A stretch of DNA of 64,000 nucleotides from Candidula unifasciata. Its lineage: Eukaryota > Mollusca > Gastropoda > Stylommatophora > Geomitridae. Positions 5,511 to 55,785 of this stretch are shown here, piece by piece. Under the pieces are notes generated by a model, which worked only from the letters and a program-made list of their open reading frames with translations, made no database searches and had not been told where the DNA came from. A program made the position numbers and the translations under genes. Position 1 is the first letter of the stretch. Every line of letters starts with the position of its first letter. The stretch covers positions 1 through 64,000 of the forward strand of contig CAJHNH020000693.1 of the NCBI GenBank assembly GCA_905116865.2, read 5' to 3'.

Positions 5511-5681
5511 TAACTACTCAGGCATTCTAAATGCTGACATCCTGAGTCTGCTATCCTCTTTGGCATTCTAACTACTGAGTCATCACCTCAAAGACATCTA
5601 AATGACTGACTTACTATGTCTATTTACCTTTAGAACATTGTAACTCTTACTGACCTAAGTGCCATCACCGAAAAAATTTCT

Positions 5682-5860
5682 AATTACTAACCTACTTCTC
5701 CATCTCTCAAGGACATTCTAATTACTAACCTACTTTTTCATCTCTCAAGGACATTCTAATTACTAACCTACTTTTTCATCTCTCAAGGACATTCTAATTA
5801 CTAACCTACTTTTGCATCTCTCAAGGACATTCTAATTACTAATTAGCAGAGCATTCTAGG
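5682..5860. repeat. 38-bp minisatellite, about 4 copies
   Basis: Unit GACATTCTAATTACTAACCT plus ACTTTTTCATCTCTCAAG. Followed at 5931-6006 by a short 18-bp repeat ACAAACAAAAAGTAGTCA. Confidence 0.88.
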
Positions 5861-15207: not shown

Positions 15208-15306
15208 TCATGTCTTGTCTACCTCAAAGTGTCTGTATATAGCTGTAACATAGTTCATCACAGCTTGCCAGTCAGGCCTCTCCATGGACACCATGTCATT
15301 GATGTT
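15208..15306 (-). CDS. SPECC1L: SPECC1L-like exon 13 (last coding exon)
   Basis: 99 bases including TGA. Acceptor CTCCTGTTGCAG. Encodes [20 protein letters not shown] then [12 protein letters not shown] and stop, matching vertebrate [20 protein letters not shown] and AIYKYFET. The acceptor is the innermost copy of a tandem repeat, so alternative acceptors lie every 30 bases upstream. Confidence 0.95.
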   Translation of the reverse strand, partial: NINDMVSMERPDWQAVMNYVTAIYRHFEVDKT

Positions 15307-18300
15307 CTGCAACAGGAGAAGTTCATCAATTACATTCTGCAACAGGAGAAGTTCATCAATTACATTCTGCAACAGGAGAAGTTCATCAATTACATTCTGC
15401 ATCAGGAGAAGTTCATCAATTACATTCTGCAAGAGAAGTTAATCAGTTACAATCAACATTCTGCAAGAGGAGAAGTTTATCAGTTACTTTCAACATTCTG
15501 CAAGAGGAGAAGTTCATCAGTTACATTCAAAATTCTGCAACATGACAAGTTAATAAGTTACATTCAACATTCTGCAACAGGAGAAGTTAATCAGTTACAT
15601 TCAACATTTAGGCCCCTCATGTAAACTAACACAGTATTAAGCACACACACCGAAAGCATACTGAAAAAAAAGGTGAAGACAGGGATGCTTCGAGCAAAGT
15701 AGCAAGCTTCACTGGACAGGGTCACGGGTAGTGAGCATACTTTAGATCTTTTCTCCAGGTCATGACGGCGTGGTGGGGAATGAACAGGCAGACAAATTGG
15801 CTGGATCTGCACCACTGGGTGGTGAACTGATACATAACAAGACAGATGTGGTCAAGGCCCTTTGGGAACAAGCAATGGAATCAGTAGAGAAACAAGATTA
15901 TTATGATCTGGAGAGAATGAGGCATCTGGGTATAACCAGAGGGTCAGGCCGGTTGACTACACTCAGAGGAAAGGCAAGACGGACATACAACCAGATTGTG
16001 ACCGGTACCACCAGTACTGGAACTCTGCGCTGGCTGCTGAAAATGAAGACTGAGCATGCATGGGAATGCCCCAAGTGCAGTGATGTCAGTTCTTGACTCA
16101 CCAGCTGTAGCTGAGAACACAGAATTTGTGTCAGTAGCTTTATAAACATGGACATTAATTGTTAGTGCACTTTTCTAATCTGTGATCTTTCTTATATTTT
16201 AAACAATGTATTTCAGTTGCATTTTTAAAATAGATTAATAAATATGTGAAAGCTATTTGTGCCTCTAACTTGGCCCATGTCTAAGTGAAATGACAACAAA
16301 TACATACCAGAGTTGCTTTGATTCCGACACTTTCTCCTGCACTGAAGGCAATCGTTAGGTTCCTCCTCTGCAATGAAAATGTAAAGATGTGCTAATCACA
16401 TGAGAAAGCTGGCAACAATTTAATACAAGGAAACAAAATGTTCAAATGAAATGCAATCAGAAATTAACCGCCTTTTTTCTCAGTATTTATTTATTTTATA
16501 TGCAAACTGTTGGTTTAGTTCTTCTTTAGTTCTCAGATGCGCTCTGACTTCGAAGAATAGCCCCCAATTAGTGAACTTATACACTAAATGCTTGTTGCGG
16601 GGCAGTAGGCCATTCCCCCAATCCAATGAGCCCCTAGAACAAGCAGGCAAATCAGTCACTCTTTACAGGTATTTTACATGTGCTAACTGGGCTATTAGAA
16701 TGTGTGCTAACTGGGCTATTAGAATGTGTGCTAACTGGGCTATTAGAATGTGTGCTAACTGGTCTATTAGAATGTGTGCTAACTGGGCTATTAGAATGTG
16801 TGCTAACTGGGCTATTAGAATGTGTGCTAACTGGGCTATTAGAATGTGTGCTAACTGGGCTATTAGAATGTGTGCTAACTGGGCTATTAGAATGTGTCCT
16901 AACTGGGCTATTAGAATGTGTGCTAACTGGGCTATTAGAATGTGTGCTAACTGGGCTATTCGAATGTTTGCTAACTGGGCTATTAGAATGTGTGCTAACT
17001 GGACTATTAGAATGTGTGCTAACTGGGATATTAGAATGTGTGCTAACTGGGCTATTAGAATGTGTGCTAACTGGGCTATTAGAATGTGTGCTAACTGGGC
17101 TATTGGAATGTGTGCTAACTGGACTATTAGAATGTGTGCTAACTGGGCTATTAGAATGTGTGCTAACTGGCTTATTAGAATGTGTGCTAACTGGGCTATT
17201 AGAATGTTTGCTAACTGGGCTATTAGAATGTGTGCTAACTGGGCTATTAGAATGTGTGCTAACTGGCTTATTAGAATATGTGCTAACTGGGCTATTAGAA
17301 TGTTTGCTAACTGGGCTATTAGAATGTGTGCTAACTGGGCTATTGGAATGTGTGCTAACTGGGCTATTAAAATGTTTGCTAAGGCTATTAGAATGTGTGC
17401 TAACTGGGCTATTAGAATGTGTGCTAACTGGGCTATTAGAATGTGTGCTAACTGGGCTATTAGAATGTGTGTGTGCTATTGGGTGTGCTAATTAGAGAAT
17501 GTGTGCTAACTGGGCTATTAGAATGTGTGCTAACTGGGCTATTAGAATGTGTGCTAACTGGGCTATTAGAATGTGTGCTAACTGGGCTATTAGAATGTGT
17601 CCTAACTGGACTATTAGCATGTGTGCTAACTGGACTATTAGCATGTGTGCTAACTGGGCTATTAGAATGTGTGCTAACTGGGCTATTAGAATGTGTGCTA
17701 AATGGGCTATTAGAATGTGTGCTAACAGGACTATTAGAATGTGTGCTAACTGGGCTATCAGAATGTGTCCTAACTGGGCTATTGGAATGTGTGCTAACTG
17801 GGCTATTAGAATGTGTCCTAACTGGGCTATTGGAATGTGTGCTAACTGGACTATTGGAATGTGTGCTAACTGGGCTATTAGAATGTGTGCTAACTGGGCT
17901 ATTAGAATGTGTGCTAACTGGGCTATTAGAATGTGTGCTAACTGGGCTATTAGAATGTGTGCTAACTGGGCTATTAGAATGTGTGCTAACTGGGCTATTA
18001 GAATGTGTGTTAACTTGGCTATTAGAATGTGTGCTAACTGGGCTATTAGAATGTGTGCTAACTGGGCTATTAGAATGTGTGCTAACTGGGCTATTAGAAT
18101 GTTTGCTAACTGGGCTATTAGAATGTGTGCTAACTGGACTATTAGAATGTGTGCTAACTGGGATATTAGAATGTGTGCTAACTGGGCTATTAGAATGTGT
18201 GCTAACTGGGCTATTAGAATGTGTGCTAACTGGGCTATTAGAATGTGTGCTAACTGGGCTATTAGAATGTGTGCTAACTGGGCTATTAGAATGTGTGCTA

Positions 18301-21300
18301 ACTGGACTATTAGAATGTGTGCTAACTGGGTTATTAGAATGTGTGCTAACAGGACTATTAGAATGTGTGCTAACTGGGCTATTAGAATGTGTCCTAACTG
18401 GGCTATTGGAATGTGTGCTAACTGGGCTATTAGAATGTGTCCTAACTGGGCTATTGGAATGTGTGCTAACTGGACTATTGGAATGTGTGCTAACTGGGCT
18501 ATTAGAATGTGTGCTAACTGGGCTATTAGAATGTGTGCTAACTGGGCTATTAGAATGTGTGCTAACTGGGCAATTATAATGTGTGCTAACTGGGCTATTA
18601 GAATGTGTGCTAACTGGACTATTAGAATGTGTGCTAACTGGGCTATTAGAATGTGTGCTAACTGGGCTATTGGAATGTGTGCTAACTGGGCTATTAGAAT
18701 GTGTCCTAACTGGGCTATTGGAATGTGTGCTAACTGGACTATTAGAATGTGTGCTAACGGGACTATTAGAATGTGTGCTAACTGGGCTATTAGAATGTGT
18801 GCTAACTGGGCTATTGGAATGTGTGCTAACTGGGCTATTAGAATGTGTGCTAACTGGGCTATTAGAATGTGTGCTAACTGGGCTATTGGAATGTGTGCTA
18901 ACTGGGCTATTGGAATGTGTGCTAACTGGGCTATTGAAATGTGTGCTAACTGGGCTATTGGAATGTGTGCTAACTGGGCTATTGGAATGTGTGCTAACTG
19001 GGCTATTGGAATGTGTGCTAACTGGGCTATTGGAATGTGTGCTAACTGGGCTATTAGAATGTGTGCTAACTGGACTATTAGAATGTGTGCTAACTGGACT
19101 ATTAGAATGTGTGCTAACTGGGCTATTGGAATGTGTGCTGACTGGACTATTAGAATGTGTGCTAACTGGGCTATTAGAATGTGTGCTAACTGGGGTATTG
19201 GAATGTGTGCTAACTGGGCTATTGGAATGTGTGCTAACTGGGCTATTAGAATGTGTGCTAACTGGGCTATTAGAATGTGTGCTAACTGGGCTATTGGAAT
19301 GTGTGCTAACTGGGCTATTAGAATGTGTGCTAACTGGGCTATTAGAATGTGTGCTAACTTGGCTATTGGAATGTGTGCTAATTAAACAATCATAAACCTT
19401 AGACAATGAGGCAGTTTATGGAATGGTATACAATGTGGTGTGATATCGCTACCTATTTCACAACAGTACTGTAAAAGACTACCACTTGTTACTTTACTAG
19501 GTCAAGCATTTGATCCTGACTGGTTACTCGTTGAGAAACACTTCTTCTGCCCAACATATAGGAGGGCAAGTCAATCAGTAAGTCACAAATGACTGTTTAA
19601 AAAAGCACACAAAAACTAAAGATGATAAAAACTTTACAACAGCACATTGTTCTTTAAAGGTATACTCCATAAGTATGGTCGCCATTTTGTTTCTGTGTTG
19701 GGAACATGCATGCAACACCCAGCGCCATCTAATGGACGGAGACATAAAGTTTGATGTTGCTGTCACATAATGACACATTTACAAACCACCAACTACATTT
19801 TCCTGCCATCCCATAACCATTTGTGACTGACTTATTGACTTCCACTGGTAATTTAGTTATTTTAGTGCTATTTCTGTTTCTAGTTGTCTTTGTTATTATG
19901 TTTTACAATACACACATAACTTATGCACATGTTAGTATGAAACTGTTCAATAATTAAGCACAAAATTGTTAGAATCACAAGGAGACAAGTATTTATAGAT
20001 TCTAAATAGTGCAAAACAGGGTTACTAAGATAAGTGTAGTGACACTATGTTGTGTACATTCACAAATTGCTGAGACAAGCCCATAAACAAACACAGAGAT
20101 CATATCTACCTTATCCTCGGAGGTGAGCTCACAGTAAGGAATCTTCTCAGGCACATAGCTGTGCAACAAGACACACAAGCCCACAAACAATGACAGAGAT
20201 CATATCTACCTTATCCTCGGAGGTGAGCTCACAGTAAGGAATCTTCTCAGGCACATAGCTGTGCAACAAGGCACACAAGCCCACAAACAACGACAGAGAT
20301 CATATCTACCTTATCCTCAGAGGTGAGCTCACAGTAAGGAATCTTCTCAGGCACATAGCTGTGCAACAAGGCACAGAAGCCCAGCCCATCATTCCAGCTG
20401 CTGCTAAAGTTGGTGATGTCAGTGTTCTGTAATTTCAAGAGCAGTGATCATTAGGATGGCTAGTGAGATAGTTGACAGCTTGGTTTCAATCCTTGGTCCA
20501 CAGCATATTTATTGACACACAAGAATGGCTTGTGAGATAGTTGACAGCTTGGTTTCAATCCTTGGTCCACAGCATATTTATTGACACACAAGAATGGCTT
20601 GTGAGATAGTTGACAGCTTGGTTTCAATCCTTGGTCCACAGCATATTTATTGACACACAAAAATGGCTTGTGAGATAGTTTACAGCTTAGTTTCAATCCT
20701 TGGTCCACAGCATATTTATTGACACACAAGAATGGCTTGTGAGATAGTTGACAGCTTAGTTTCAATCCTTGGTCCACAGCAAATTTATTGACACACAAGA
20801 ATGGCTTGTGAGATAGTTGACAGCTTAGTTTCAATCCTTGGTCCACAGCATATTTATTGACACACAAGAATGGCTTGTGAGATAGTTGACAGCTTAGTTT
20901 CAATCCTTGGTCCACAGCATATTTATTGACACACAAGAATGGCTTGTGAGATAGTTGACAGCTTGGTTTCAATCCTTGGTCCACAGCATATTTATTGACA
21001 CACAAGAATGGCTTGTGAGATAGTTGACAGCTTGGTTTCAATCCTTGGTGCACAGCATATTTATTGACACACAAGAATGGCTTGTGAGATAGTTGACAGC
21101 TTGGTTTCAATCCTTGGTCCACAGCATATTTATTGACACACAAGAATGGCTTGTGAGATAGTTTACAGCTTGGTTTCAATCCTTGGTCCACAGCATATTT
21201 ATTGACACACAAGAATGGCTTGTGAGATAGTAGTTTACAGCTTGGTTTCAATCCTTGGTCCACAGCATATTTATTGACACACAAGAATGGCTTGTGAGAT

Positions 21301-33300: not shown

Positions 33301-36300
33301 GTTCTCCTTGTCATAAATATTCATTCACATATTGTTACTGACTAGTTTTTAAATTCTGTTCATTTCTCTAAACTTGAACCATACCTTTCCTTTGAGCTCT
33401 GCATTGGTTAATATAGACTGCTTCAGTGAAGAATCCTCTCTGGTTTGTTTCAAAATGATATTCTCTTGTCGGAGCTTGTCCATTTCCCTCTGCATGAGCT
33501 GTAACTGCTCAGTCAGCTGACTGTTTTCGCCTGTAATGGCATCCATCTTGTCTTGTGTTTCCTGGCTAAAGTTATTAGCAATGACAACTGCCGTCTGCAA
33601 GTCCCTTTGAAACTGTTTCCATTCCTCAGACTCAACATCATGTTTGGAGCTAATCTGAACACAAATCATCTCTATAGTGTATTTATCATATCATGTATAG
33701 AGAACATTGTAAACCCCACAATAATTATATATGTATCTTAAATGCGGATGTTGGAGACTAGAAGTCATAATTGTGAATGCTGTTCAAATAACATTTTATA
33801 GATAACATGAATTCTGCATCTGCATTTATATGATGTTGATTTCAAGGTGGAAATTTGGCCAGTGTTGGATGATTTCCAGCTTTGGTGACAATTTGGCCAG
33901 TGTTTGATGATTTCCACAACTGTCTGTGCCCTAGTGTCCTTCCATGCTGTTGATTCCTCTTGCTACGAACTGTAGCCCTATGGTATTGTCAGCAGGAGAT
34001 CTCTATGCCTCACATCTGTGAGGTTCCAGGGTTCCACTCGGGGGGAAAGGGGGGGGGGGGGGATGGACACTCACTCTACATAAAAGTGATTAATTAGGGG
34101 TGTTTCCTTCAAAGTTGGATTAATCTGTCTGAGAGACAAGAAACCAAGAGTTTGCACACAACTAAGTCAGATCTGTGAAATGTATGCGCACGCAAAACTC
34201 AAATTCTGAAACAAGACCAAAGTCCACAAGAAGATAAACAATCAGGACTTTGTGCTGAAGTTTACATTCAGTAAACATGAAACAGAAGACAACCAGTGAT
34301 GAGTGAGAGACTAACTGTCTGCATACAACCAGTGATGAGTGAAAGACTAACTGTCTGCATGAAACTAGTGATGAGTGACTAACTGTCTGCATACAACTAG
34401 TGATGAGTGAAAGACTGTCTGCATACAACTAGTGATGAGTGAGAGACTAACTGTCTGCATGAAACTGGTGATGAGTGACTAACTGTCTGCATACAACTAG
34501 TGATGAGTGACTAACTGTCTGCATACAACTAGTGATGAGTAAGAGACTAACTGTCTGCATTTAACTAGTGATGAGCGAGAGACTAACTGTCTGCATACAA
34601 CTAGTGATGAGTGACTAACTGTCTGCATACAACTAGTGATGAGTAAGAGACTAACTGTCTGCATTTAACTAGTGATGAGCGAGAGACTAACTGTCTGCAT
34701 ACAACTAGTGATGAGTGAGAGACTAACTGTCTGCATACAACCAGTGATGAGTGAAAGACTAACTGTCTGCATGAAACTAGTGATGAGTGACTAACTGTCT
34801 GCATACAACTAGTGATGAGTGAAAGACTGTCTGCATACAACTAGTGATGAGTGAGAGACTAACTGTCTGCATGAAACTAGTGATGAGTGACTAACTGTCT
34901 GCATACAACTAGTGATGAGTGACTAACTGTCTGCATACAACTAGTGATGAGTAAGAGACTAACTGTCTGCATTTAACTAGTGATGAGCGACAGACTAACT
35001 GTCTGCATACAACTAGTGATGAGTGACTAACTGTCTGCAATACAACTAGTTGATGAGTAAGAGACTAACTGTCTTCATTTAACTAGTGATGAGTCGAGAG
35101 ACTAACTGTCTGCATACAACTAGTGATGAGTGAGAGACTAACTGTCTGCATACAACCAGTGATGAGTGAAAGACTAACTGTCTGCATGAAACTAGTGATG
35201 AGTGACTAACTGTCTGCATACAACTAGTGATGAGTGAAAGACTGTCTGCATACAACTAGTGATGAGTGAGAGACTAACTGTCTGCATGAAACTAGTGATG
35301 AGTGACTAACTGTCTGCATCAAAAACTAGTGATGATGTGACTAACTGTCTGCATACAACTAGTGATGAGTAAGAGACTAACTGTCTGCATTTAACTAGTG
35401 ATGAGCGAGAGACTAACTGTCTGCATACAACTAGTGATGAGTGACTAACTGTCTGCATACAACTAGTGATGAGTAAGAGACTAACTGTCTGCATTTAACT
35501 AGTGATGAGCGAGAGACTAACTGTCTGCATACAACTAGTGATGAGTGAGAGACTAACTGTCTGCATACAACTAGTGATGAGTGACTAACTGTCTGCATAT
35601 AACTAGTGATGAGTAAGAGACTAACTGTCTGCATTCAACTAGTGATGAGTGAGAGACTAACTATCTGCATTCAACTAGTGATGAGTGACAGACTAACTGT
35701 CTACGTACAACTAGTGATGAGTGAGAGACTAACTGCATACAACTAGTGGTGAGTGAAAGACTAACTGTCTGCATACAACTAGCGATGAGTGAAAGACTAA
35801 CTGTCTGGATACACCTAGTGATGAGTCAGAGACTAACTGTCAGCATACAACTAGTGATGAGTGAGAGACTGTCTGCATTCAACTAGTGATGAGTGAGAGA
35901 CTAACTGTCTGCATACAAATAGTAACGAGTGAAAGACTAACTGTCTGCATTCAACTAGTGATGAGTAAGAGACTAACTGTCTGAATACAACTAATGATGA
36001 GTGAAAGACTAACTTTCTGCATACAACTAGTGATGAGTGAGAGACTAACTGTCTGAATACAACTAATGATGAGTGAAAGACTAACTGTCTGCATACAACT
36101 AGTGATGAGTTAGAGACTAACTGTCTGCATTCAACTAGTGATGAGTGAGAGACTAACTGTCTGCATACAACTAGTGATGAGTGAAAGACTAACTGTCTGC
36201 ATACAACTAGTGATGAGTGAGAGACTAACTGTCTGCATACAACTAGTGATGAGTGAAAGACTAACTGTCTGCATGCAACTAGTGATGAGTGAGAGACTGT

Positions 36301-39300
36301 CTGCATTCAACTAGTGATGAGTGAGAGACTAACTGTCTGCATACAAATAGTGACGAGTGAAAGACTAACTGTCTGCATACAACTAGTGATGAGTGAGAGA
36401 CTAACTGTCTGCATACAAATAGTGACGAGTGAAAGACTAACTGTCTGCATACAACTAGTGATGAGTGAGAGACTAACTGTCTGAATACAACTAGTGATGA
36501 GTGAGAGACTAACTGTCTGCATACAACTAGTGATGAGTGAGAGACTAACTGTCTGAATACAACTAGTGATGAGTGAGAGACTAACTGTCTGAATACAACT
36601 AGTGATGAGTGAGAGACTAACTGTCTGCATACAAATAGTGATGAGTGAAAGACTAACTGTCTGCATACAACTAATGATGAGTGAGAGACTAACTGTCTGA
36701 ATACAACTAATGATGAGTGAAAGACTAACTGTCTGCATACAACTAATGATGAGTGAAAGACTAACTGTCTGCATACAACTAGTGAGCAACAACCAGAACT
36801 TTCTGATGGAGTTTACAGCTGGTGAACGCTAAGAAAAAGAAGAAACAGACTCCAAAGAATGGATTATTTCTAAATTAGTAACTAACCTTCTTTACCTTAT
36901 TATCTGACCTTTAGTTCAAGCATTCATATCTTTCAACTGCTAATTATGTGTGTGATCAAAACAATGATTTTCATGCCTAAGAAAATCTCGTTGAGCTCCT
37001 TTCCTCCATCTCTGCACTCGTCTTCTAGCATGATGAACAAGATATGCTTGTTTTATTTGTTCAATGCTCCAGAGGTTTAAATAATTTTATTTCATCCAGA
37101 ACAAAAACAATGAGCAAGAAAGATGAAAATAATAGGAAAAGTACATATGACATCATGATACAAATGACATCAAGCACATGTATATGACAATGAATCTGCC
37201 AAAATGGCTAGAGCACTCAAGCATATGGCTGTAAAAAGTTATGCCGGTGATAAAAATCCTGGAGATATGAACCTCACCTCCTGTAGCTCTGCTTCCATGA
37301 TCTGTTTCTGCTGCTTGGTACACCTGAGTTCTGACTGAGCCTCCTGCAGTTTTACAGTCAAACTTCTTTTCTCTTCTTTATATCTGCAGAATTATACAAA
37401 TATATGGCTCATATGACACATTTTCCTGTCCCTAACAATTATGAATTACAGCCCCTGAAGAAATGTTACTTTCTGTTTTTGCTCTCCCCACTTTCAGAAA
37501 CAAACACTGTGTATCTTCTTTGCATTTATTCATTCATTCATTATTCGTGGATTAACAACAAATATGCATTATTCAGATGACATCTCAGTAACATTTCACT
37601 TCACTGGGTAACTAGAACATTTGTTCACAATCCAAAATTAGTTTTACTCCAGAAAGCATACATTTCTAAAAAAAATATAGATTCAGCACAAAATATTTCA
37701 CATCAATTATTTTGATTTTATTTGAAAAAGATAGGATTCTGTTTGACGCAGAGATTTGTTGATTAAACTGTCAAAATGCAGCTCTGCTCTAAACTAAAAG
37801 TGGATGTTTTCACTGTACCTGTCACAGTCTGATTCCAGTTGATCTGCATGTTTTCTCAGAATGTCTTCTTTCCTCTCAGATTCCAGTTTTTCTTTTTCCA
37901 CTGCATCCAGTCTAGACTGCAGGACAGACATCTGAGTCTTTGCACTGTTGCAGATTTCTGAGGAGTCCACAAGTTTTAGCAATGTCAAAATTAAAAATTT
38001 AAAAACAAACACACACGCAAGACAGAAGAGATTACACTACAACTAATCCACAGAACAAATATGATCAGATCATTTGTAAGTTTTGAAGTGGTTATATTGG
38101 TCACAGCTTGGTCTTACCATTGTTGTCCTGGTGTCTGCTGTTAAAACACTCATGATAAAAGAAAACATTTTCTTCTTCTTCTCTGCCTGCATTTAGATTG
38201 CCATGTTAATGTCTTTGATAATATACAAGTAGAATCAGTTTCTGGTTTATGATATTCCAGTTGCAGTCAATTTGGTTGATGCTAAATTTGTTCATGTTCA
38301 TGACAGTAATACACACGCAAATCACAAATATTCTATCCAGGATATTCGGGTGTGTGAGATAACAAAAAGCCTGATAGATTGGTTGCTGCCGCTCCTCTGG
38401 GCAATGACCAATTATTTGATAAAGAGGACGTGGTGAAGCTCTATGGCATCAAATGGACAGTGCAAAAGAACAGATAGGCAATCCATACACTGAAAAACTA
38501 ATTCAATGGGGAGTGAGAAGAGGTTCTAAAAGATATTCAAAATTAGAGGGGAAACTGAGGGAGACGTTTAATCAGGTTGCAAGTGGTACTGTTAGCATGT
38601 CAACTTAACGTTGTTTACCGCAGAAGGCAACGGAGCACATGTGGGTATGTCTGAAGAAGGCAACGGAGTACGTATGGGTATGTCTGAAGAAGTCAACGGA
38701 GCACGTGTGGGTATGTCCGAAGAAGGCAACGGAGTATGTGTGGGTATGTATGAAGAAGGCAACAGAGTACGTGTGGGTATGTCTGAAGAATGCGACAGAG
38801 TACGTGTGGGTATGTCTGAAGAAGGCAACACGTGTGAGAACAATGTGCAACAGAGTGGGTATGTCTGAAGAAAAGAAGGCAACGAGAGAACAATACATGT
38901 GTGGGTATGTATGCGACAGAGTCTGTATGTCTGAAAGCGATGGAGCAGGTGTGGGTGTGACCCCAGTGCAGTGTTGTTCATTCATTCTTCCTATGGTGTT
39001 ATCATTCTTCAATAAAACTTCACTTCTGCAGCTTTCATACAATTTCAAACCAATATGCTGACTGTCCATTGTCTCCTTCATATATGGATAAACTTTGACG
39101 ACATGTTACTTCAAACTGCTATATCAGAAAAATGACACCTGTCTGAAGTGCACTAAGAATGAAGCAGTTGCAGTCAGTAATGGTTAAACTGAAGCCATAG
39201 TAAGAAACCAAATGCAATCAACAAGTTGGGTCATGAGGTTAATGTTTCTAACTCCTTACAGAAGAAAAAGGGGAATAGTTCTGCAGGACAGATGCATGCA

Positions 39301-51300: not shown

Positions 51301-54300
51301 AGTGTTGTCTTCTGTCAGCTCATTGACAGCATCTTGTAAGTCACCCAGTTCCTATGGCAGATACCATTTCATTGTAGTTAACAGTCACACTAAGCTAGTG
51401 AAAACTTCACAGTCAATCATGGAATCACAATCTGAAACAAAACTGATGATATCCATTGTCCTCCAAACAGCAGGATGCATGCCTGAATGCCAGCGGTGAC
51501 CTCTTCCGATCTCAGGTGCATATTTGCTTTATAACAGTTGATATCAATTCTGCCACGCCTGCTAACATACTTGTTATATGTTTGTAACAAAGCCACTAGG
51601 ACTTGTTTAATTTAGGTACACCACATATGATCATGTTTTCTCAATATGTCTCCCATCTAATAAAGGATCTTTTTCATGCCTTCAGACGTACTGGCCATTT
51701 AGTGCTAGATCTTTTTGTACTGACCAATCAGCACTCAGTGGGGGACGTGATCAACATCCTTCCAGCCGCCTTTACGTCCCAGGACTTTATCTGGTACACA
51801 TTTCAGGCTTGGTCGATCTAGAAGCCAATATCAATTTTGAGAAAAGTCTGGCTCTATTCGGAATTGAACCCATGACCTTTTGATCCGAAGGCAAGCATTT
51901 AGCTGTGACGCCACAGGGGCTGCTTTCTAATGGTAGTATCCTTTCCTTCCGTCTTGATAACTGGAATTTAGTTATCTTTCTAAACTTCAAATTAATGACA
52001 TGATCTCAAACAATTCAGGCCAAAGCGTTTTTAGATAATTGCTCATGACTCACTGGATTTTGCAGCTAAAGTTTCCTAGTAACAAGTCTCATGCTAAACC
52101 TCCTTAGTGGGCTTTTAATACATGCATGGTTAGTTACAGTACTTGTATTGTTGGCTTTTAATACATGCATGGTTAGTCACAGTACTTGTATTGTTGGCTT
52201 TTAATACATGCATGGTTAGTTACAGTACTTGTATTGTTGGCTTTTAATACATGCATGGTTAGTAACAGTACTTGTATTGTTGGCTTTCAATACATGCATG
52301 GTTAGTAACAGTACTTGTATTGTTGGCTTTTAATACATGCATGGTTAGTTACAGTACTTGTATTGTTGGCTTTTAATACATGCATGGTTAGTTACAGTAC
52401 TTGTATTGTTGGCTTTTAATACATGCATGGTTAGTTACAGTACTTGTATTGTTGGCTTTTAATACATGCATGGTTAGTTACAGTACTTGTATTGTTGGCT
52501 TTTAATACATGCATGGTTAGTTACAGTACTTGTATTGTTGGCTTTTAATACATGCATGGTTAGTAACAGTACTTGTATTGTTGGCTTTCAATACATGCAT
52601 GGTTAGTAACAGTACTTGTATTGTTGGCTTTTAATACATGCATGGTTAGTTACAGTACTTGTATTGTTGGCTTTTAATACATGCATGGTTAGTAACAGTA
52701 CTTGTATTGTTGGCTTTCAATACATGCATGGTTAGTAACAGTACTTGTATTGTTGGCTTTTAATACATGCATGGTTAGTTACAGTACTTGTATTGCTGGC
52801 TTACATTATGGACCCCAGTACCACTGAAGCATTTTTTGAAATTAACTAGTGAATTTCATTTGTATCTTTCATATTTGTCTTTAATTAAAAATCAGACGAC
52901 TTCTATTTGTCATCTACTTTGATTTTCAGAAAGTGCATCCCTGCTGCCATACTATTTGAATACCAGAATGTGAATCTAATGCAGGTCTCATAACAATGAA
53001 ATCATTTTAAAGAATTAAAAATTGTATTTCAACTAATTATATTTTGCCACTGCTAAAGATTTGTCTTGAATATAAATGTTACAGACAGGTTCTAAGAATA
53101 TCTTGGGTAAAGAAAAGAACAAATGCATCCATACTTCAAGGGCTGAATATTGAAGAGGGTTGGCTAGTAAAGACAATAAAACAAAGAAAATTGAAATATT
53201 TTGGTCACTTGAAACGTCATGGAAGTCTAGAGAGAACAATAATGGAGGGGTATATGCCTGGGAAGAGAGGAAGAGGAAGGCCAAGGAGAAGATGGGTGCA
53301 GGATGTGGCAGATGATCTCCAGATGGGTGTCTCAGACGCAGGAAATCTTGCTCAGGATAGGAAGGTTTTCCGGAGGGTTGTTATGGCAGCGAGGTTCCGC
53401 GAGGGACATGCTACTGAATGAATGAATGAATGAAAGATTTGTCTCCATGTGCAGCTGCACATGTTACACAAATACAGGCTTGCATATATTTATACAACTT
53501 TGAAGGAAACTATTGCAATTAACAGCTCAAACTGTTAATACTTTTCTAATATGTGACAATTAAAAGATTTAACCAAAACAACAGACATTATAAAAGAAAT
53601 GATGCAATTAAACAATACCTCTAAAACAAAGATAAAAGTTTAATTCTTGTTGAAGCATTTTCTTGCTAACCTTTCAAAACTGTCCAATCCTCACCCATCA
53701 AACACACCATACCTGCAGGGTTGCTTGTAATTCCTCACACATCAAACATACCATACCTGCAGGGTTGCTTGTAATTCCTCACACATCAAACACACCATAC
53801 CTGCAGGGTTGCTTGTAATTCCTCACACATCAAACACATCATACCTGCAGGGTTGCTTGTAATTCCTCACCCATCAAACACATCATACCTGCAGGGTTGC
53901 TTGTAATTCCTCACACATCAAACACATCATACCTGCAGGGTTGCTTGTAATTCCTCACACATCAAACATACCATACCTGCAGGGTTGCTTGTAATTCCTC
54001 ACACATCAAACACACCATACCTGCAGGGTTGCTTGTAATTCCTCACACATCAAACACACCATACCTGCAGGGTTGCTTGTAATTCCTCACACATCAAACA
54101 TACCATACCTGCAGGGTTGCTTGTAATTCCTCACACATCAAACACACCATACCTGCAGGGTTGCTTGTAATTCCTCACACATCAAACATACCATACCTGC
54201 AGGGTGCAGGGTTGCTTGTAATTCCTCACACATCAAACATACCATACCTGCAGGGTTGCTTGTAATTCCTCACACATCAAACACACCATACCTGCAGGGT

Positions 54301-55785
54301 TGCTTGTAATTCCTCACACATCAAACATACCATACCTGCAGGGTTGCTTGTAATTCCTCACACATCAAACATACCATACCTGCAGGGTTGCTTGTAATTC
54401 CTCACACATCAAACACACCATACCTGCAGGGTTGCTTGTAATTCCTCTGTGGTTGAATAATTTGTTTCTTCCATTTGTAGTATTCTCTCTGTTAAGCATG
54501 CTAGGGAAGCTTCACTGATAGCACCATCACTATTTGCTGACTTGTTGCTCTGCTTATCCCAGTTGGCAGTGTCCAGTGAAAGTACTGATGGATGGTCAGG
54601 TGTCCCACACAGATCAGGTAGCGACATTCCTGGCTCTGAGGCAGACAAAGATGTAGATCGATGAAGGTCTGAACCGTCAACTTCACTTAAGAGAGTCTTC
54701 TCAGAAACCCCAACAAAAGTGATATTTATAGGATTTGTGTGGCTTTTTGTATGTCCTCCATCTGTGGAGATGCTGTAACAGCTCAAGCAGGTTTGCAGAT
54801 AGATGTCAGAAGTGTTATCATGACTATCAGCTGTGTCGGCACAAGAATTCTTCATCATGAGCTTTTCAGAGTCCGTGATCTGTTCTGCTGGAAATCCAAG
54901 CTCTTGTAGTCTGTCAACAAGTAATTTATTTTGGTTCCTAAGTAACTCCATTTCTTCTCTGCTCTCACTGCATGATATCTGATCTTTCAGTCTCTTAACT
55001 TCATATTTGTATTTTTCAATCTCACCCTTCCTGCTTTCTGCCACTTTAGTCAGTTCTGATATCCTTCCCTCAAGTATCTTCTTTTCTTTCTCAAAATTAG
55101 CCAACAGTTCAGCATTGAAAGCCATGACGTCTGCAGGAGCTGATGTACGCTTCTTCAAAAATTTATCTTTGCAAATATTCTGTGTACTCTGAGCTCGCTT
55201 GATGGCCAGGTTGCTGGATGACTTAGACGATGATGATTTCAGGCTTGTTCTGTCTATGGACTGTGTACTAGATGCCTTCCGCATGTTGGCAGCTAAACTA
55301 TTTAGCTTTCCTGCTTTGGATTTCATAATAACTGAGTTTCTCTCCCTCACCCGAATGGCTAGATTTTCTTTATTTTTTTCAGCAAGGTCTGCTTCAGTTT
55401 TTGTCAACAAAGAAACAGGTTGAGGAGACTCCACGACTGTTGTTAAAGATGCAGTCTTCCCCTGACTGCTTAGGTTTTCCTGGCTTTTACTGATGAACTT
55501 TTTAGCTACAGAAGTTTTATCTTTGAATCTGTCTTTGTGACTAAGACCTGAATGGTCTGACTTTGAATGTTTCATTCCCATTGCCTGCTCTGTTACTCCT
55601 TCACTTGTGATGATGGAAACAGCTGGATTTGCTGCAAGGCAAGCTCCTGATGATATAATGTTGGCAGTGCTGCCACAAACTGTGGTGGTAGGGACTGTGT
55701 TAGCAGCTTTGTTTACAGAGGCACTGTTCCCAGCTCCAGGACCTACAGTTGCTGCTGCCCGGACACACCTCTCTTGCTTCTTCAT
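15208..55785 (-). CDS. SPECC1L: Cytospin-A / SPECC1L-like protein, 13 coding exons (complete reconstruction)
   Basis: Seen: 13 exons joined by GT-AG introns with matching phases give about 1150 residues (human SPECC1L is about 1117). Coding exons, 5' to 3': 55785-54424, 51351-51223, 48669-48461, 42183-42042, 40751-40562, 37957-37819, 37383-37278, 33654-33385, 30376-29874, 25800-25674, 20426-20310, 16367-16308, 15306-15208. Domains: basic Ser/Thr-rich N-terminus (1-215), interrupted coiled coil (about 215-860), Ser/Pro-rich linker (about 865-1030), CH domain (about 1042-1148) with conserved [20 protein letters not shown] and ERPDWQ. The start is fixed by an in-frame TGA 21 bases upstream in the same exon. 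Known of the family: a cytoplasmic scaffold that binds actin and microtubules, works with non-muscle myosin regulation and adherens junctions, and causes facial clefting when mutated in humans. Invertebrates usually have one co-orthologue of SPECC1 and SPECC1L, so the symbol is approximate. Odd: three of its splice sites lie inside tandem repeats. Confidence 0.95.
15305..15605 (-). repeat. Tandem repeat carrying the exon 13 splice acceptor
   Basis: About nine copies of a unit of 30 bases (inner copies), becoming 33-37 bases further out. Read on the minus strand each unit ends in a pyrimidine tract and CAG (CTTCTCCTGTTGCAG) followed by AAT or AAC. The innermost copy is the real exon 13 acceptor. 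The four next AG positions (15337, 15367, 15397, 15427) are exactly 30 bases apart and in frame. Confidence 0.9.
15655..16120 (+). mobile_element. LINE RNase H tail in intron 12, antisense to the gene
   Basis: Includes [37 protein letters not shown] and [18 protein letters not shown], the RNase H end and Cys-rich C-terminus of the same family as the 11.5-13.9 kb LINE. Nucleotide similarity extends into its upstream part (CACGGGTAGTGAGCATACTT). 5' truncated. Confidence 0.85.
16308..16367 (-). CDS. SPECC1L: SPECC1L-like exon 12 (CH domain, 20 codons)
   Basis: 60 bases, phase 0 at both ends, too short for routine ORF calling. Acceptor TTTTCATTGCAG, donor ACTCTG|GTATGT. Encodes [20 protein letters not shown], aligning with vertebrate [20 protein letters not shown]. 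Found by looking for the missing CH-domain segment between exons 11 and 13. Confidence 0.94.
16668..19390. repeat. 24-bp minisatellite, about 113 copies, intron 11
   Basis: Unit GTGTGCTAACTGGGCTATTA plus GAAT. The 24-base length keeps most frames open on both strands for hundreds of codons ([16 protein letters not shown] and STHSNSPV repeats). Variant units (CCTAAC, GGAATG, GGATATT, TTTGCTA) recur in blocks, e.g. the same series at about 17.72-17.87 and 18.34-18.49 kb, so higher-order duplication occurred. It lies between exons 11 and 12 and is spliced out. Confidence 0.95.
19565..19845. mobile_element. Candidate MITE with terminal inverted repeats
   Basis: Left end CAAGTCAATCAGTAAGTCAC then AAATG; the right end, reverse-complemented, reads GAAGTCAATAAGTCAGTCAC then AAATG. 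About 280 bases apart with no coding capacity. Target duplication not clear. Confidence 0.6.
20097..20310 (-). repeat. 100-bp repeat duplicating the exon 11 3' end and donor
   Basis: Exact 100-base period: the donor context recurs at 20110, 20210 and 20310. Each extra copy holds roughly 60 exon-derived bases ([20 protein letters not shown]) plus the GTAGATATG donor and about 35 intron bases. Only the 20310 copy is joined to the full exon. 100 is not a multiple of 3. Confidence 0.9.
20310..20426 (-). CDS. SPECC1L: SPECC1L-like exon 11 (CH domain core)
   Basis: 117 bases, 39 codons, phase 0. Acceptor AAATTACAG, donor GATAAG|GTAGAT. Encodes [20 protein letters not shown] then [18 protein letters not shown], nearly the vertebrate CH-domain core. 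The 3' half of the exon with its donor is repeated twice more just downstream (20097-20296). Confidence 0.95.
20455..21495. repeat. 69-bp minisatellite, 15 copies, intron 10
   Basis: Unit GGCTTGTGAGATAGTTGACA, GCTTGGTTTCAATCCTTGGT, CCACAGCATATTTATTGACA, CACAAGAAT. 69 is 23 codons, so the minus strand stays open ([20 protein letters not shown]). Copies are very similar, suggesting recent expansion. It starts about 30 bases beyond the exon 11 acceptor. Confidence 0.95.
21600..21935. repeat. Degenerate copies preceding the 37-bp array
   Basis: Scattered diverged versions of CATGTGCCATGTAATGTTCT, the unit of the next array. Confidence 0.6.
21940..22362. repeat. 37-bp minisatellite, about 11 copies (forward arm)
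   Basis: Unit ACAAAACAAATCATGTGCCA plus TGTAATGTTCTATCTGC. Reverse-complement copies occur at 23605-23810. Confidence 0.93.
22363..23035. repeat. 27-bp minisatellite, about 25 copies
   Basis: Unit GCATGAGGTCATGATGTTGT plus AAGCTTT; directly abuts the 37-bp array. 27 is a multiple of 3, hence open minus-strand frames (NIMTSCKAY). Confidence 0.94.
23036..23600. other. Intron 10 sequence, no feature recognised
   Basis: AT-rich unique sequence between repeat arrays. Confidence 0.6.
23605..23810. repeat. 37-bp minisatellite, inverted arm, about 5 copies
   Basis: Units such as ATGGCACATGATTTGTTTTG plus TGCAGATAGAACATTAC are the reverse complement of the 21940-22362 unit. Confidence 0.9.
23812..24310. 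repeat. 20-bp minisatellite, about 25 copies
   Basis: Unit ATGTATCCCAAACACTGCAC with CTGC/CTTC and ATAC/ATCC variants. Confidence 0.94.
24485..24597. repeat. 56-bp direct duplication
   Basis: Two copies of a unit beginning AATGAGGACC and ending ATTACTAGCAT; one internal difference. Confidence 0.85.
24797..25003. repeat. 25-bp minisatellite, 8 copies, at the end of a LINE fragment
   Basis: Unit GGTCCTCAATCAACTCACAG plus TGGTT. It abuts the minus-strand LINE tail at 25005-25370. Confidence 0.92.
25005..25370 (-). mobile_element. RTE-type LINE C-terminal fragment
   Basis: Minus strand reads [14 protein letters not shown], a WNPQG-(basic)-R stretch and TWGELHAV, the usual C-terminal signature of endonuclease/reverse-transcriptase LINEs (WxGHVxR then TWGE). 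Stops interrupt it. Confidence 0.65.
25376..25607 (-). mobile_element. tRNA-derived SINE, family 1, copy A
   Basis: On the minus strand an A-box-like TGGCTAAGTTGATG and a B-box GGGTTCGATCCC form a tRNA-like head; the body ends GGATACGCACCTAACC. An ACTGATTT flank on both sides is a likely target duplication. Same family at 39439 and 42338. Confidence 0.82.
25674..25800 (-). CDS. SPECC1L: SPECC1L-like exon 10 (start of CH domain)
   Basis: 127 bases, phase 2 in and phase 0 out. Acceptor CTGATTACAG, donor TATTCA|GTAAGT. Encodes [20 protein letters not shown] then [11 protein letters not shown]. This is helix 1 of the CH domain and aligns to the vertebrate [19 protein letters not shown] block. 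Confidence 0.95.
25985..26820. repeat. 13-bp minisatellite, about 60 copies, intron 9
   Basis: Alternating TTACCATACACTG and TTATCATACACTG. A variant block (CAATGTTATCTTACACTGTA then ACCACACAGTGTTACTG) recurs near 26200, 26510 and 26670, giving higher-order structure. Confidence 0.94.
26940..27310 (+). mobile_element. LINE reverse transcriptase fragment
   Basis: [20 protein letters not shown] is RT motif C (FADD with catalytic Asp pair), followed by [20 protein letters not shown], the typical motif D/E context of RTE-type LINEs. Truncated on both sides. Confidence 0.8.
27311..27860. other. Intron 9 sequence, no feature recognised
   Basis: Unique sequence with a short poly-T run; no coding or repeat signal. 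Confidence 0.55.
27865..28420. mobile_element. Interspersed repeat R, copy 1
   Basis: Over about 550 bases this matches 56568-57222 and, reverse-complemented and internally deleted, 61695-61975. Shared landmarks: TTTCAGCTTCATAGCAAACG, CTCAGAAGCTGGGCGAC and AATGGAGCAAAAATGCATCG. One end is a short (CTGGTAGT)n tract. No coding capacity; class unknown. Confidence 0.8.
28555..28818. repeat. 21-bp repeat, about 12 copies
   Basis: Unit AATATCCCAGGAGCAGAACC plus T; open in all copies as EPNIPGA on plus and RFCSWDI on minus because 21 is a multiple of 3. Intronic. Confidence 0.94.
28895..29041. mobile_element. MITE, TTAA-flanked, copy 1
   Basis: Ends TTAACTCTCTGAGTCCCA and, reverse-complemented, TTAAACTCCTTGAGTCCCA: inverted repeats next to TTAA, the target preferred by piggyBac-type transposases. 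Same element inverted at 59596-59737. Confidence 0.8.
29042..29873. other. Intron 9 sequence, no feature recognised
   Basis: AT-rich unique sequence between the MITE and exon 9. Confidence 0.6.
29874..30376 (-). CDS. SPECC1L: SPECC1L-like exon 9 (linker)
   Basis: 503 bases, phase 0 in and phase 2 out. Acceptor GACTTTCAG, donor AATCGT|GTGAGT. Begins with [12 protein letters not shown] (vertebrate AVERDLAALRQG), then a Ser/Pro-rich low-complexity linker with [11 protein letters not shown], several S-P sites and RRSSG, consistent with a disordered phosphorylated region between the coiled coil and the CH domain. Confidence 0.93.
30484..30895. mobile_element. Interspersed repeat Q, copy 1 (with AT microsatellite)
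   Basis: Shares with 45655-46140, in order: a CTTCTTCTT start, TTTTACAGATCTGGCT and TTGTTAGGGAGGCAGTG. A TA/TATACTTG microsatellite (30628-30730) interrupts it. Non-coding; class unknown. Confidence 0.72.
30896..31660 (-). mobile_element. RTE-type LINE fragment, internally deleted
   Basis: Minus strand in order: [18 protein letters not shown] and [20 protein letters not shown] (RT motif A, here [11 protein letters not shown]), then [20 protein letters not shown], then [12 protein letters not shown] and MEEVK near the C-terminus. A C-run and deletion (31436-31460) separate the first parts, so the YADD segment is lost. Confidence 0.8.
31679..31996 (+). mobile_element. tRNA-derived SINE, family 2
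   Basis: tRNA-like head: GGAGCTGCGTGGTCTCAAGG with B-box GGTTCAATCCCC, followed by a body of about 230 bases ending near TGGGCTGACTTGAAAA. Single copy in the window. Confidence 0.75.
32000..32165. repeat. Degenerate repeat of about 50 bp
   Basis: Three to four diverged copies of AAGTGTCATGCGTTTCA with CACGTTATAA. Confidence 0.6.
32635..33315. repeat. 54-bp minisatellite, about 12 copies, intron 8
   Basis: Unit CATCTAACTACTGACATACA, CTTGTTCTCCTTGTCACAAA, TCAGAAACACCATT. Ends about 70 bases short of the exon 8 donor. Confidence 0.94.
33385..33654 (-). CDS. SPECC1L: SPECC1L-like exon 8
   Basis: 270 bases, 90 codons, phase 0 at both ends. Acceptor TTGTGTTCAG, donor GGAAAG|GTATGG. Carries one of the best conserved family blocks, [19 protein letters not shown] (vertebrate [19 protein letters not shown]), followed by Gln-rich coiled coil. 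Confidence 0.95.
33940..34060 (+). mobile_element. Possible SINE head (tRNA-like), truncated
   Basis: GTAGCCCTATGGTATTGTCA, then GAGGTTCCAGGGTTCCACTC, resembles the A- and B-box arrangement of a tRNA-derived SINE; followed by a G-rich run. Confidence 0.45.
34285..36790. repeat. 37-bp minisatellite, about 68 copies, intron 7
   Basis: Unit ACTAGTGATGAGTGAGAGAC plus TAACTGTCTGCATACAA, with 32- and 33-base variants. A block of about 412 bases is repeated three times (markers near 34411, 34822 and 35237), after which order becomes less regular. Confidence 0.95.
37278..37383 (-). CDS. SPECC1L: SPECC1L-like exon 7
   Basis: 106 bases, phase 2 in and phase 0 out. Acceptor AATTCTGCAG, donor CAGGAG|GTGAGG. 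Encodes Lys/Glu/Gln-rich coiled coil ([18 protein letters not shown]). Too short to stand alone; accepted because both splice sites and phases fit its neighbours. Confidence 0.87.
37819..37957 (-). CDS. SPECC1L: SPECC1L-like exon 6
   Basis: 139 bases, phase 1 in and phase 2 out. Acceptor GACTCCTCAG, donor TGTGACAG|GTACAG. Encodes [20 protein letters not shown], like the vertebrate LRSDLDEKETERSDMKETI region. Coiled coil. Confidence 0.9.
38010..38600. other. Intron 5 sequence, no feature recognised
   Basis: Around 38.34-38.6 kb the plus strand (ends with GGGGAAACTGAGGGAGACGT) may be a decayed LINE tail, but I cannot support it. Confidence 0.4.
38620..38890. repeat. 33-bp repeat, about 7 copies
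   Basis: Unit GAAGGCAACGGAGTACGTGT plus GGGTATGTCTGAA; multiple-of-3 unit, open in several frames. Confidence 0.9.
39439..39667 (-). mobile_element. tRNA-derived SINE, family 1, copy B
   Basis: Same A-box/B-box head (TGGCTAAGTCGATG; GGGTTTGATCCC) and body as copy A. Flanked by GTTAATGCTTAA (39426) and GTTAACGCTTAA (39668), a clear target-site duplication with one mismatch. Confidence 0.88.
39925..40085 (+). mobile_element. SINE family 3 body, copy 1
   Basis: AGTCCTGGGAAGTAAAGGTG, GATGTTGACCACATCATTCA and GAGTGCTGATTGGTC align with the reverse complement of 51720-51790. The tRNA-like head is not evident here. Confidence 0.65.
40562..40751 (-). CDS. SPECC1L: SPECC1L-like exon 5
   Basis: 190 bases, phase 0 in and phase 1 out. 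Acceptor CCTGCTAG, donor CTAACAG|GTATGG. Contains [20 protein letters not shown], the counterpart of the vertebrate DLLESVRLDKEKAETL motif. Coiled coil. Confidence 0.93.
41015..41195. repeat. 57-bp repeat, 3 copies
   Basis: Unit AAAACTGTGGTCCTGACCAG, CCATTTCTGAAACCACAGGA, TGAGATGAGATTGTGGC. Confidence 0.92.
41200..42041. other. Intron 4 sequence, no feature recognised
   Basis: AT-rich unique sequence running up to the exon 4 donor. Confidence 0.6.
42042..42183 (-). CDS. SPECC1L: SPECC1L-like exon 4
   Basis: 142 bases, phase 2 in and phase 0 out. Acceptor CATTTTCAG, donor AGCAAA|GTGAGC. Coiled coil: [18 protein letters not shown] and [15 protein letters not shown], equivalent to the IEMNRLKAQLENEKQK stretch of vertebrate SPECC1L. 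Confidence 0.92.
42338..42568 (-). mobile_element. tRNA-derived SINE, family 1, copy C
   Basis: Head with GGGTTCGATCCC B-box; body as in the other two copies. Flanks ATTTCCTCAAAA and ATTTTCTCAAAA are a target-site duplication with one mismatch. Confidence 0.88.
42580..43630. other. Intron 3 sequence with a possible decayed transposase
   Basis: On the plus strand 43150-43250 reads [20 protein letters not shown] then [12 protein letters not shown], which looks like a helix-turn-helix segment of an IS630/Tc1-like transposase. Stops follow and no DDE motif could be found. Confidence 0.3.
43640..43965 (+). mobile_element. LINE RNase H tail, third copy
   Basis: [20 protein letters not shown], then [20 protein letters not shown], matches the 11.5-kb and 15.7-kb LINE tails. 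5' truncated within the NEQADRLAG motif. Confidence 0.85.
44250..44700 (-). mobile_element. RTE-type LINE C-terminus (uninterrupted copy)
   Basis: Minus strand: an [13 protein letters not shown] start and [10 protein letters not shown] near 44.65 kb, then [40 protein letters not shown] and stop. A second copy at 59265-59830 carries a MITE at the site that is empty here. Confidence 0.83.
44701..45500. other. Intron 3 sequence, no feature recognised
   Basis: AT-rich, with A-runs at 44.73-44.78 kb; 45.16-45.23 kb contains a short imperfect duplication (AGGTCAACCAACCAGAAGTG / AGGTCGACCAATCAAAACTG). Confidence 0.5.
45509..45614. repeat. 25-bp repeat, 4-5 copies
   Basis: Unit ATGTCCCCCTCTTCTGTGGC plus AAACT. 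Confidence 0.9.
45655..46140. mobile_element. Interspersed repeat Q, copy 2
   Basis: Begins TTCTTCTTCTTTG; contains TTTTACAGATCTGGCTTATT and TGTTAGGGAGGCAGTG as in copy 1 at 30484-30895. Confidence 0.72.
46210..48180 (+). mobile_element. LINE 3' end expanded by an internal minisatellite
   Basis: 46215-46300 matches the end of the LINE ORF at 61.2-61.3 kb (KAWTELIPL here, KAWTEQILS there; then CTAGTGGATAATGA). 48020-48170 matches that LINE's 3' UTR (GTGGCTGTTGCATGGGAGGA here, GTGGCTGCTGCTTAGGAGGA there). Between them the segment at the ORF stop is repeated about 31 times. Confidence 0.8.
46258..48015. repeat. 58-bp minisatellite, about 31 copies, derived from a LINE tail
   Basis: Unit CTGTATGGTCTAAGCTAGTG, GATAATGATAAATCTCTGAT, GCTAATACGACTGTGTGA; some units lack a TGACTGTA block (about 50 bp). 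The unit resembles the single-copy LINE sequence at 61288-61340. Confidence 0.93.
48461..48669 (-). CDS. SPECC1L: SPECC1L-like exon 3
   Basis: 209 bases, phase 0 in and phase 2 out. Acceptor CATTTTCAG, donor ATACAG|GTGAGT. Encodes coiled coil with [16 protein letters not shown] and [12 protein letters not shown], matching the family's QDNKEAQEMI region. A 43-bp minisatellite begins about 60 bases upstream of its acceptor. Confidence 0.92.
48735..49612. repeat. 43-bp minisatellite with acceptor-like motif, intron 2
   Basis: About 20 copies. On the gene's sense (minus) strand each unit contains TTCTTGCTTCTCAG, a pyrimidine-rich run ending in CAG, which resembles a 3' splice site. The array ends about 65 bases before the exon 3 acceptor. 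Confidence 0.85.
49613..50229. other. Intron 2 sequence, no feature recognised
   Basis: Unique sequence; 50110-50230 may be the decayed start of the adjacent LINE fragment. Confidence 0.5.
50230..50740 (+). mobile_element. RTE-type LINE C-terminal fragment
   Basis: [51 protein letters not shown]: the C-terminal part after the RT domain in endonuclease/reverse-transcriptase LINEs. A frameshift separates ...GKRKKKMDR from [15 protein letters not shown]. Same family as 56.4-58.3 kb. Confidence 0.83.
51223..51351 (-). CDS. SPECC1L: SPECC1L-like exon 2
   Basis: 129 bases, 43 codons, phase 0 at both ends. Acceptor CTGCCATAG, donor CAC|GTAAGAG. The product ([16 protein letters not shown] through [15 protein letters not shown]) follows [10 protein letters not shown] exactly as ELADLQ...ESLCQQSDKLE does in vertebrate SPECC1L. 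Heptad-rich coiled coil. Confidence 0.92.
51605..51925 (-). mobile_element. tRNA-derived SINE, family 3, copy 2
   Basis: On the minus strand the head begins GCAGCCCCTGTGGCGTCACA and holds the B-box-like GGGTTCAATTCC; the body (GGGACGTAAAGGCGGCTGGA, GAGTGCTGATTGGTCAGTAC) matches 39925-40085. Lies in intron 1, same strand as the gene. Confidence 0.78.
52085..52800. repeat. 43-bp minisatellite, about 16 copies, intron 1
   Basis: Unit GGCTTTTAATACATGCATGG, TTAGTTACAGTACTTGTATT, GTT; TTAG-TTAC/TTAG-TAAC and TTTTAA/TTTCAA variants occur in matching pairs, showing block duplication. Confidence 0.95.
53080..53430 (+). mobile_element. RTE-type LINE 3' end, near-identical to 3213-3468
   Basis: Reads [20 protein letters not shown], then [20 protein letters not shown], ending REGHATE, stop and (TGAA)n. 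Longer at its 5' end than the 3.2-kb copy. Antisense to the gene in intron 1. Confidence 0.87.
53431..53689. other. Intron 1 unique sequence
   Basis: AT-rich sequence between the LINE tail and the donor array; no feature. Confidence 0.6.
53690..54444 (-). repeat. 44-bp array duplicating the exon 1 3' end and donor
   Basis: Seventeen copies with a 44-base period (one junction carries a 7-base insertion near 54198). On the minus strand each unit holds 24 exon bases (EELQATLQ), then the donor GTATGG and about 14 more intron bases. The copy at 54424 is the authentic exon end; the other 16 lie in intron 1. Confidence 0.92.

Follow-up and report, generated by a model that had tools for sequence, protein, structure and literature searches.

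The cytospin-A gene and its splice-boundary arrays

The window, by which we mean the whole stretch of DNA analyzed here, comprises bases 1-64000 of a 244,092-base contig of Candidula unifasciata; the assembly searched amounts to 1.34 Gb in 7176 contigs. A spliced model and protein matches place a gene of the cytospin-A (SPECC1L) type on the minus strand at 15208-55785, where 13 coding exons and 12 GT-AG introns give a single open reading frame of 1150 amino acids. The best match of the modelled protein is the annotated C. unifasciata protein P0001, and the two differ only in ten residues of exon 8 that P0001 lacks. These ten in-frame residues are encoded in the genome within 33385-33654, and by eye no GT-AG intron fits that would account for their absence. 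Entries named as cytospin-A in four other gastropods show 84-86% identity in the region searched (residues 1000-1150), and the C-terminal CH domain matches Pfam PF00307 with 73.2 bits. That match bears out the earlier note in its claim of a CH-domain gene; its predicted product carries a CH domain at the C-terminus and resembles named cytospins, which places the gene with cytospin/SPECC1L.

The C-terminal part of the CH domain is encoded by exon 13 (15208-15306, minus strand), the last coding exon, which is placed by the spliced model and is identical in translation to the tail of P0001. Exon 12 (16308-16367, minus strand), placed by the same model, ends ...GIKATL|gtatgt in phase 0, so that use of any acceptor upstream of the annotated one would insert whole codons.

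The acceptor of exon 13 (AG ending at 15307, minus strand) belongs to a tandem array at 15305-15608, of which it forms the innermost unit. TRF reports this array as a 30-bp array (15305-15528) overlapping a 37-bp array (15422-15608); the former includes 15307, the site that P0001 implies is used. Counted outward from the exon, the units measure 30, 30, 30, 30, 34, 37, 37 and 37 bp, followed by a ninth copy at 15572-15608, and every unit ends in CAG. The array units thereby present nine AGs in acceptor context, five of which preserve the reading frame. Four 30-bp units (15307-15426, minus strand), of which the three innermost are identical and the fourth differs by one base, each combine a yTnAy motif (A at -20), a pyrimidine tract and CAG, with AGs ending at 15307 (annotated), 15337, 15367 and 15397. 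The transitional 34-bp unit (15427-15460, minus strand) carries the AG ending at 15427, the outermost in-frame acceptor (+40 residues), and the four 37-bp units (15461-15608, minus strand) carry acceptor-like AGs ending at 15461, 15498, 15535 and 15572, which lead to a stop after 5-14 codons. The earlier note had described AGs at 15307, 15337, 15367, 15397 and 15427 (last G) as exactly 30 bases apart and in a common frame into exon 13, the series being capped by an in-frame TAA; the spacing, the frame and the cap (15441-15439, inside the 34-bp unit, with the segment 15438-15211 open) all hold, but the four outer AGs were missing from its series.

A DNA search of the 1.34-Gb assembly, which scores best candidates only, found the exon 13 array in this single place. 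Repeats can be mis-sized in a draft assembly, and this one is described as built from 25.6x PacBio coverage with wtdbg2 and polishing, so an artefact or a wrong copy number has to be weighed. The array is, however, about 300 bp long against a reported PacBio read N50 of 9.9 kb, and the ordered differences in unit length and sequence would be hard to obtain from collapse or stutter; together with the single location, this makes an artefact highly improbable.

Two further splice boundaries of the same gene lie within arrays, making three of the 24 boundaries between the 13 coding exons. At the exon 1 donor (53688-54447, minus strand), a 44-bp unit in 17.1 copies (TRF) consists of the last 24 exon and first 20 intron bases; the 24 terminal bases of exon 1 occur exactly 16 times, the true exon end among them, and the unit contains the GT donor. 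The exon 11 donor, within the CH domain, lies in an array (20075-20383, minus strand) with a 100-bp unit in 3.1 copies (TRF), about 66 exon bases being contained in each copy. In both donor arrays, the reading frame runs into a stop already in the first extra copy.

Origin of the repeat unit and comparison with known systems

Units made of exon plus intron sequence are clear at the exon 1 and exon 11 donors. For the exon 13 acceptor, the earlier note had proposed an origin of the unit in the exon boundary, on the grounds that unit starts resemble the exon start. This likeness stands in part: the 30-bp unit start agrees with the start of exon 13 at 7 of 12 bases, a level equalled by just 1.9% of 1550 other post-CAG sites in the window, but over 15 bases the agreement is 7/15, which 10.5% of control sites reach, and the 34- and 37-bp units agree at just 4-5 of 12 bases. 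Gapped alignment scores, calculated for four units, were matched by 11-46% of control sites. With the 15-base match and the outer units as they are, descent from the exon boundary is weakly supported. A duplication that took in the opening bases of exon 13, in parallel with the two donors, is nevertheless a possible, if doubtful, source of the unit: the 12-base agreement of the 30-bp units and the plain presence of exon sequence in both donor arrays point toward it, while the chance-level match over 15 bases, the poor agreement of the 34- and 37-bp units and the gapped scores point away. The exon 1 donor array is better evidence for exon-boundary duplication than is the exon 13 acceptor array. 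Within the latter, the 30-bp unit appears derivable from the 37-bp unit by loss of seven bases between two AATG words in AATGTTGAATG, and such a loss would be the pattern expected from slippage.

The earlier note likened the array to tandem acceptor choice, a comparison which we judge to be apt. NAGNAG acceptors share one branch point and tract. Like the snail array, NAGNAG and other tandem acceptors are described as offering closely spaced alternative in-frame AGs (PMC3250501, PMC1449888), but the AGs of a NAGNAG are 3 nt apart, whereas in the array the spacing is 30 nt and every unit has its own acceptor signals. The array is not itself a NAGNAG, in which two AGs lie three bases apart, since its spacing is 30-37 bases.

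Repeat-duplicated exon boundaries are already known in amphioxus and human genes, and the snail array belongs to this kind. The “mirages” of amphioxus, found in BflGb6/BflGb9 globin, Adh3, troponin C and PGBD5, are tandem repeats at exon boundaries by which splicing is reportedly undisturbed (PMC3087553, PMC3902484). As these reports describe them, they resemble the snail arrays in being minisatellite-like, in occurring at both acceptors and donors, and in having units with AG/GT signals. The snail differs in being a mollusc, in that an exon part is not demonstrable in its acceptor array (the exon 1 and exon 11 donor arrays do fit the description), and in having four in-frame units in that acceptor array. 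In intron 18 of human ABCA7, the first GT of a 25-bp VNTR is the exon 18 donor, and an isoform retaining one repeat unit, through use of the next donor, is given as 2 +/- 1% (PMC5954066); that VNTR is on the donor side, out of frame and of known length polymorphism, whereas the snail array is on the acceptor side and in frame for four units. Boundary minisatellites with a mean unit of 30 bp are also reported to alter splicing and coding sequence in human segmental duplications (PMC2812944), where they appear as differences between recent paralogs with transcript support, while the snail case concerns a single gene read from genomic sequence. A lectin repeat in prawn was considered as a parallel and rejected, the source describing 30/33-bp coding repeats and no repeated acceptors (PMC7536079). 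A literature search of open-licence full texts returned no report of an in-frame acceptor ladder.

Site strength, reading frame and choice of acceptor

The relative strength of the nine AGs was assessed with a small acceptor model trained on the 11 other acceptors in the cytospin-A gene; these training sites, which score high by construction, range from 2.5 to 10.6. Scores for the nine AGs fall between 5.7 and 7.4; the annotated 15307 has 7.07, and two of the eight other sites (15427 and 15572) score above it at 7.41. A yTnAy motif is present at all nine, with its A at -20 in eight and at -17 and -27 for 15427. Given the similar scores and the presence of this motif throughout, each unit looks like a self-contained acceptor with a branch-point-like motif, a pyrimidine tract and CAG.

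As the earlier note had worked out, splicing to 15337, 15367, 15397 or 15427 would add 10, 20, 30 or 40 residues inside the CH domain; translated in frame, the array gives 10 residues, then a decapeptide three times, and continues into exon 13. Use of 15461, 15498, 15535 or 15572 would give a stop after 5, 5, 5 or 14 codons, respectively. Stops from these outer acceptors fall in the last coding exon, where nonsense-mediated decay may spare the message. In a sequence alignment to solved CH domains, the insertion junction precedes the residues aligned to DAEDIV of alpha-actinin, a position in the CH fold which we take to be the loop before a short helix.

The question of whether the open frame of the inner units is exceptional was addressed with the 42 non-redundant arrays of the window, a set that counts the 30-bp array together with its 37-bp neighbor as one. 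The period is divisible by three in 13 of these arrays, and 26 of the 78 frames of those 13 are open, for a joint rate of about 0.10; openness in frame therefore needs no selection, and chance suffices to explain the reading frame that runs through the inner units. Seven of the 42 arrays hold a repeated acceptor-like motif on some strand, so that the repeated motif alone is no evidence of function, and because four of the nine AGs lead to early stops, the whole array is not shaped for readability. One of these seven, at 5678-5842 on the plus strand, has a 38-bp unit in 4.3 copies with TACTAAC, a pyrimidine tract and AAG; by eye, no plausible exon adjoins it.

P0001 joins exon 12 to exon 13 without an insert, which implies use of the acceptor at 15307. 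The annotation of C. unifasciata is described as drawing on mapped RNA-seq of the species (public under ENA PRJEB41346; PMC8496239) and lists one mRNA per gene, so there may be minor isoforms. Local alignment revealed no insertion at the exon 12-13 junction in any listed protein (120 out of 1523 matches, with P0001 among them). In a text-pattern pass over the same 120, 93 proteins showed no gap, 26 escaped the pattern and one, a Plutella model, had a 57-residue insertion. By eye this insertion looks like a retained intron with a repeated part of an exon, through the second copy of which the local alignment runs ungapped. The proposal that the extra acceptors are used is thus unsupported, as P0001 implies 15307 and a junction insert is absent among the listed proteins. 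By the scanning rule, the second step of splicing picks the first AG more than about 12-15 nt past the branch point; for 15307 to be used, the branch point would therefore have to lie inside the innermost unit or a short way upstream of 15337.

It could be that the additional acceptors are used to some purpose, such that the CH domain is lengthened by 10-40 residues and the copy number serves as a genetic dial. The five in-frame acceptors with similar scores and the phase 0 end of exon 12 would allow this, and Pfam still recognizes the domain with one decapeptide inserted (62.5 vs 73.2 bits). However, an insert is absent from P0001 and from the 119 proteins listed with it, a leucine-rich decapeptide is unlikely to be neutral for the folding of so compact a domain, four further acceptors truncate the protein, and openness in frame is expected in about one in ten arrays; we regard this reading as unlikely. 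It is similarly improbable that up to five self-contained in-frame acceptors yield cytospin isoforms with zero to four CH decapeptides, over a range that varies between individuals with copy number; if true, the array would be a germline-tunable splice-site ladder.

Our preferred reading, which we consider likely to be correct, is of an array that expanded by slippage and whose innermost unit supplies the splice site, any leakage to other units being low. Through slippage or unequal exchange, the 3' end of intron 12 would have acquired a growing minisatellite that now contains the exon 13 acceptor; the branch point of the innermost unit would be used, and first-AG scanning from it would select 15307 and give the normal mRNA. 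Upstream units would be used at low frequency, probably without a selected function. This reading draws on the insert-free P0001, derived from an annotation using mapped RNA-seq, and on the lack of a junction insert in the 120 proteins listed of 1523 matches. It draws also on the like scores of nine AGs of which four give early stops, on the stop that two of the gene's three splice-boundary arrays (44 and 100 bp) add in their first extra copy, on the base rate of about 0.10 for the frame, and on the precedents of amphioxus arrays reported to leave splicing undisturbed and of the ABCA7 isoform retaining one unit at 2 +/- 1%. Against it, the scores do not favor 15307 over its neighbors (those of 15427 and 15572 are higher), scanning from a more distal branch point would choose an upstream AG, and the three innermost units, identical and in frame, could also be explained by selection.

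For the choice that the spliceosome makes between near-identical acceptors, the array is a clean experiment of nature, given that order, distance and exon content vary here and the local signal hardly does. It could also represent one route by which coding length changes through repeat copy number.

Splice-boundary arrays elsewhere in the genome

With its two donor arrays, the cytospin-A gene extends repeat-duplicated exon boundaries to a land snail. Arrays occupy 36% of the window (22,798 of 64,000 bases), including 16679-19381 and 34289-36785, compared with a mean of 15% in the 72 loci of the survey described below, a comparison in which TRF thresholds differ slightly and the loci are exon-centered. 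Arrays of such kind may mislead gene prediction in minisatellite-rich genomes.

The survey covered 72 matched exons, that is, all 42 CH matches and 30 of the 49 TCP1 matches in the assembly; some loci overlap and some matches contain stops, and 71 lie outside the cytospin-A gene, the remaining one (L034) being its own exon 11. An array was found at most 60 nt from the match in 13 of the 72. Eleven of these 13 arrays were inspected by eye, the other two being L034, already known, and L054. Among the inspected arrays outside the cytospin-A gene, only one (L029) holds exon sequence across a donor, a count which is a lower bound because matches may end before the exon does. Splice-boundary arrays recur in the C. 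unifasciata genome, but they are not the rule.

L029 (1282-1525) holds a CH exon that by eye resembles those of spectrin; at its donor, six copies of a 41-bp unit form an array that takes in the exon end. Simple repeats begin at or adjoin the donor in two further loci (L024 and L044), and in another (L078) the array starts within the first few intron bases. On the acceptor side, an acceptor-like unit of 29 bp with TTTCTTCACATAG or close variants occurs 15 times ahead of a chaperonin-family (TCP1) exon (L077, 1670-2096), in an array that stops about 13 nt before the true acceptor AG. In Elysia chlorotica, the protein P0007 of the same gene as P0001 has TRFESTNTLRW three times after ERPDW, which may be read-through into a splice-boundary minisatellite.
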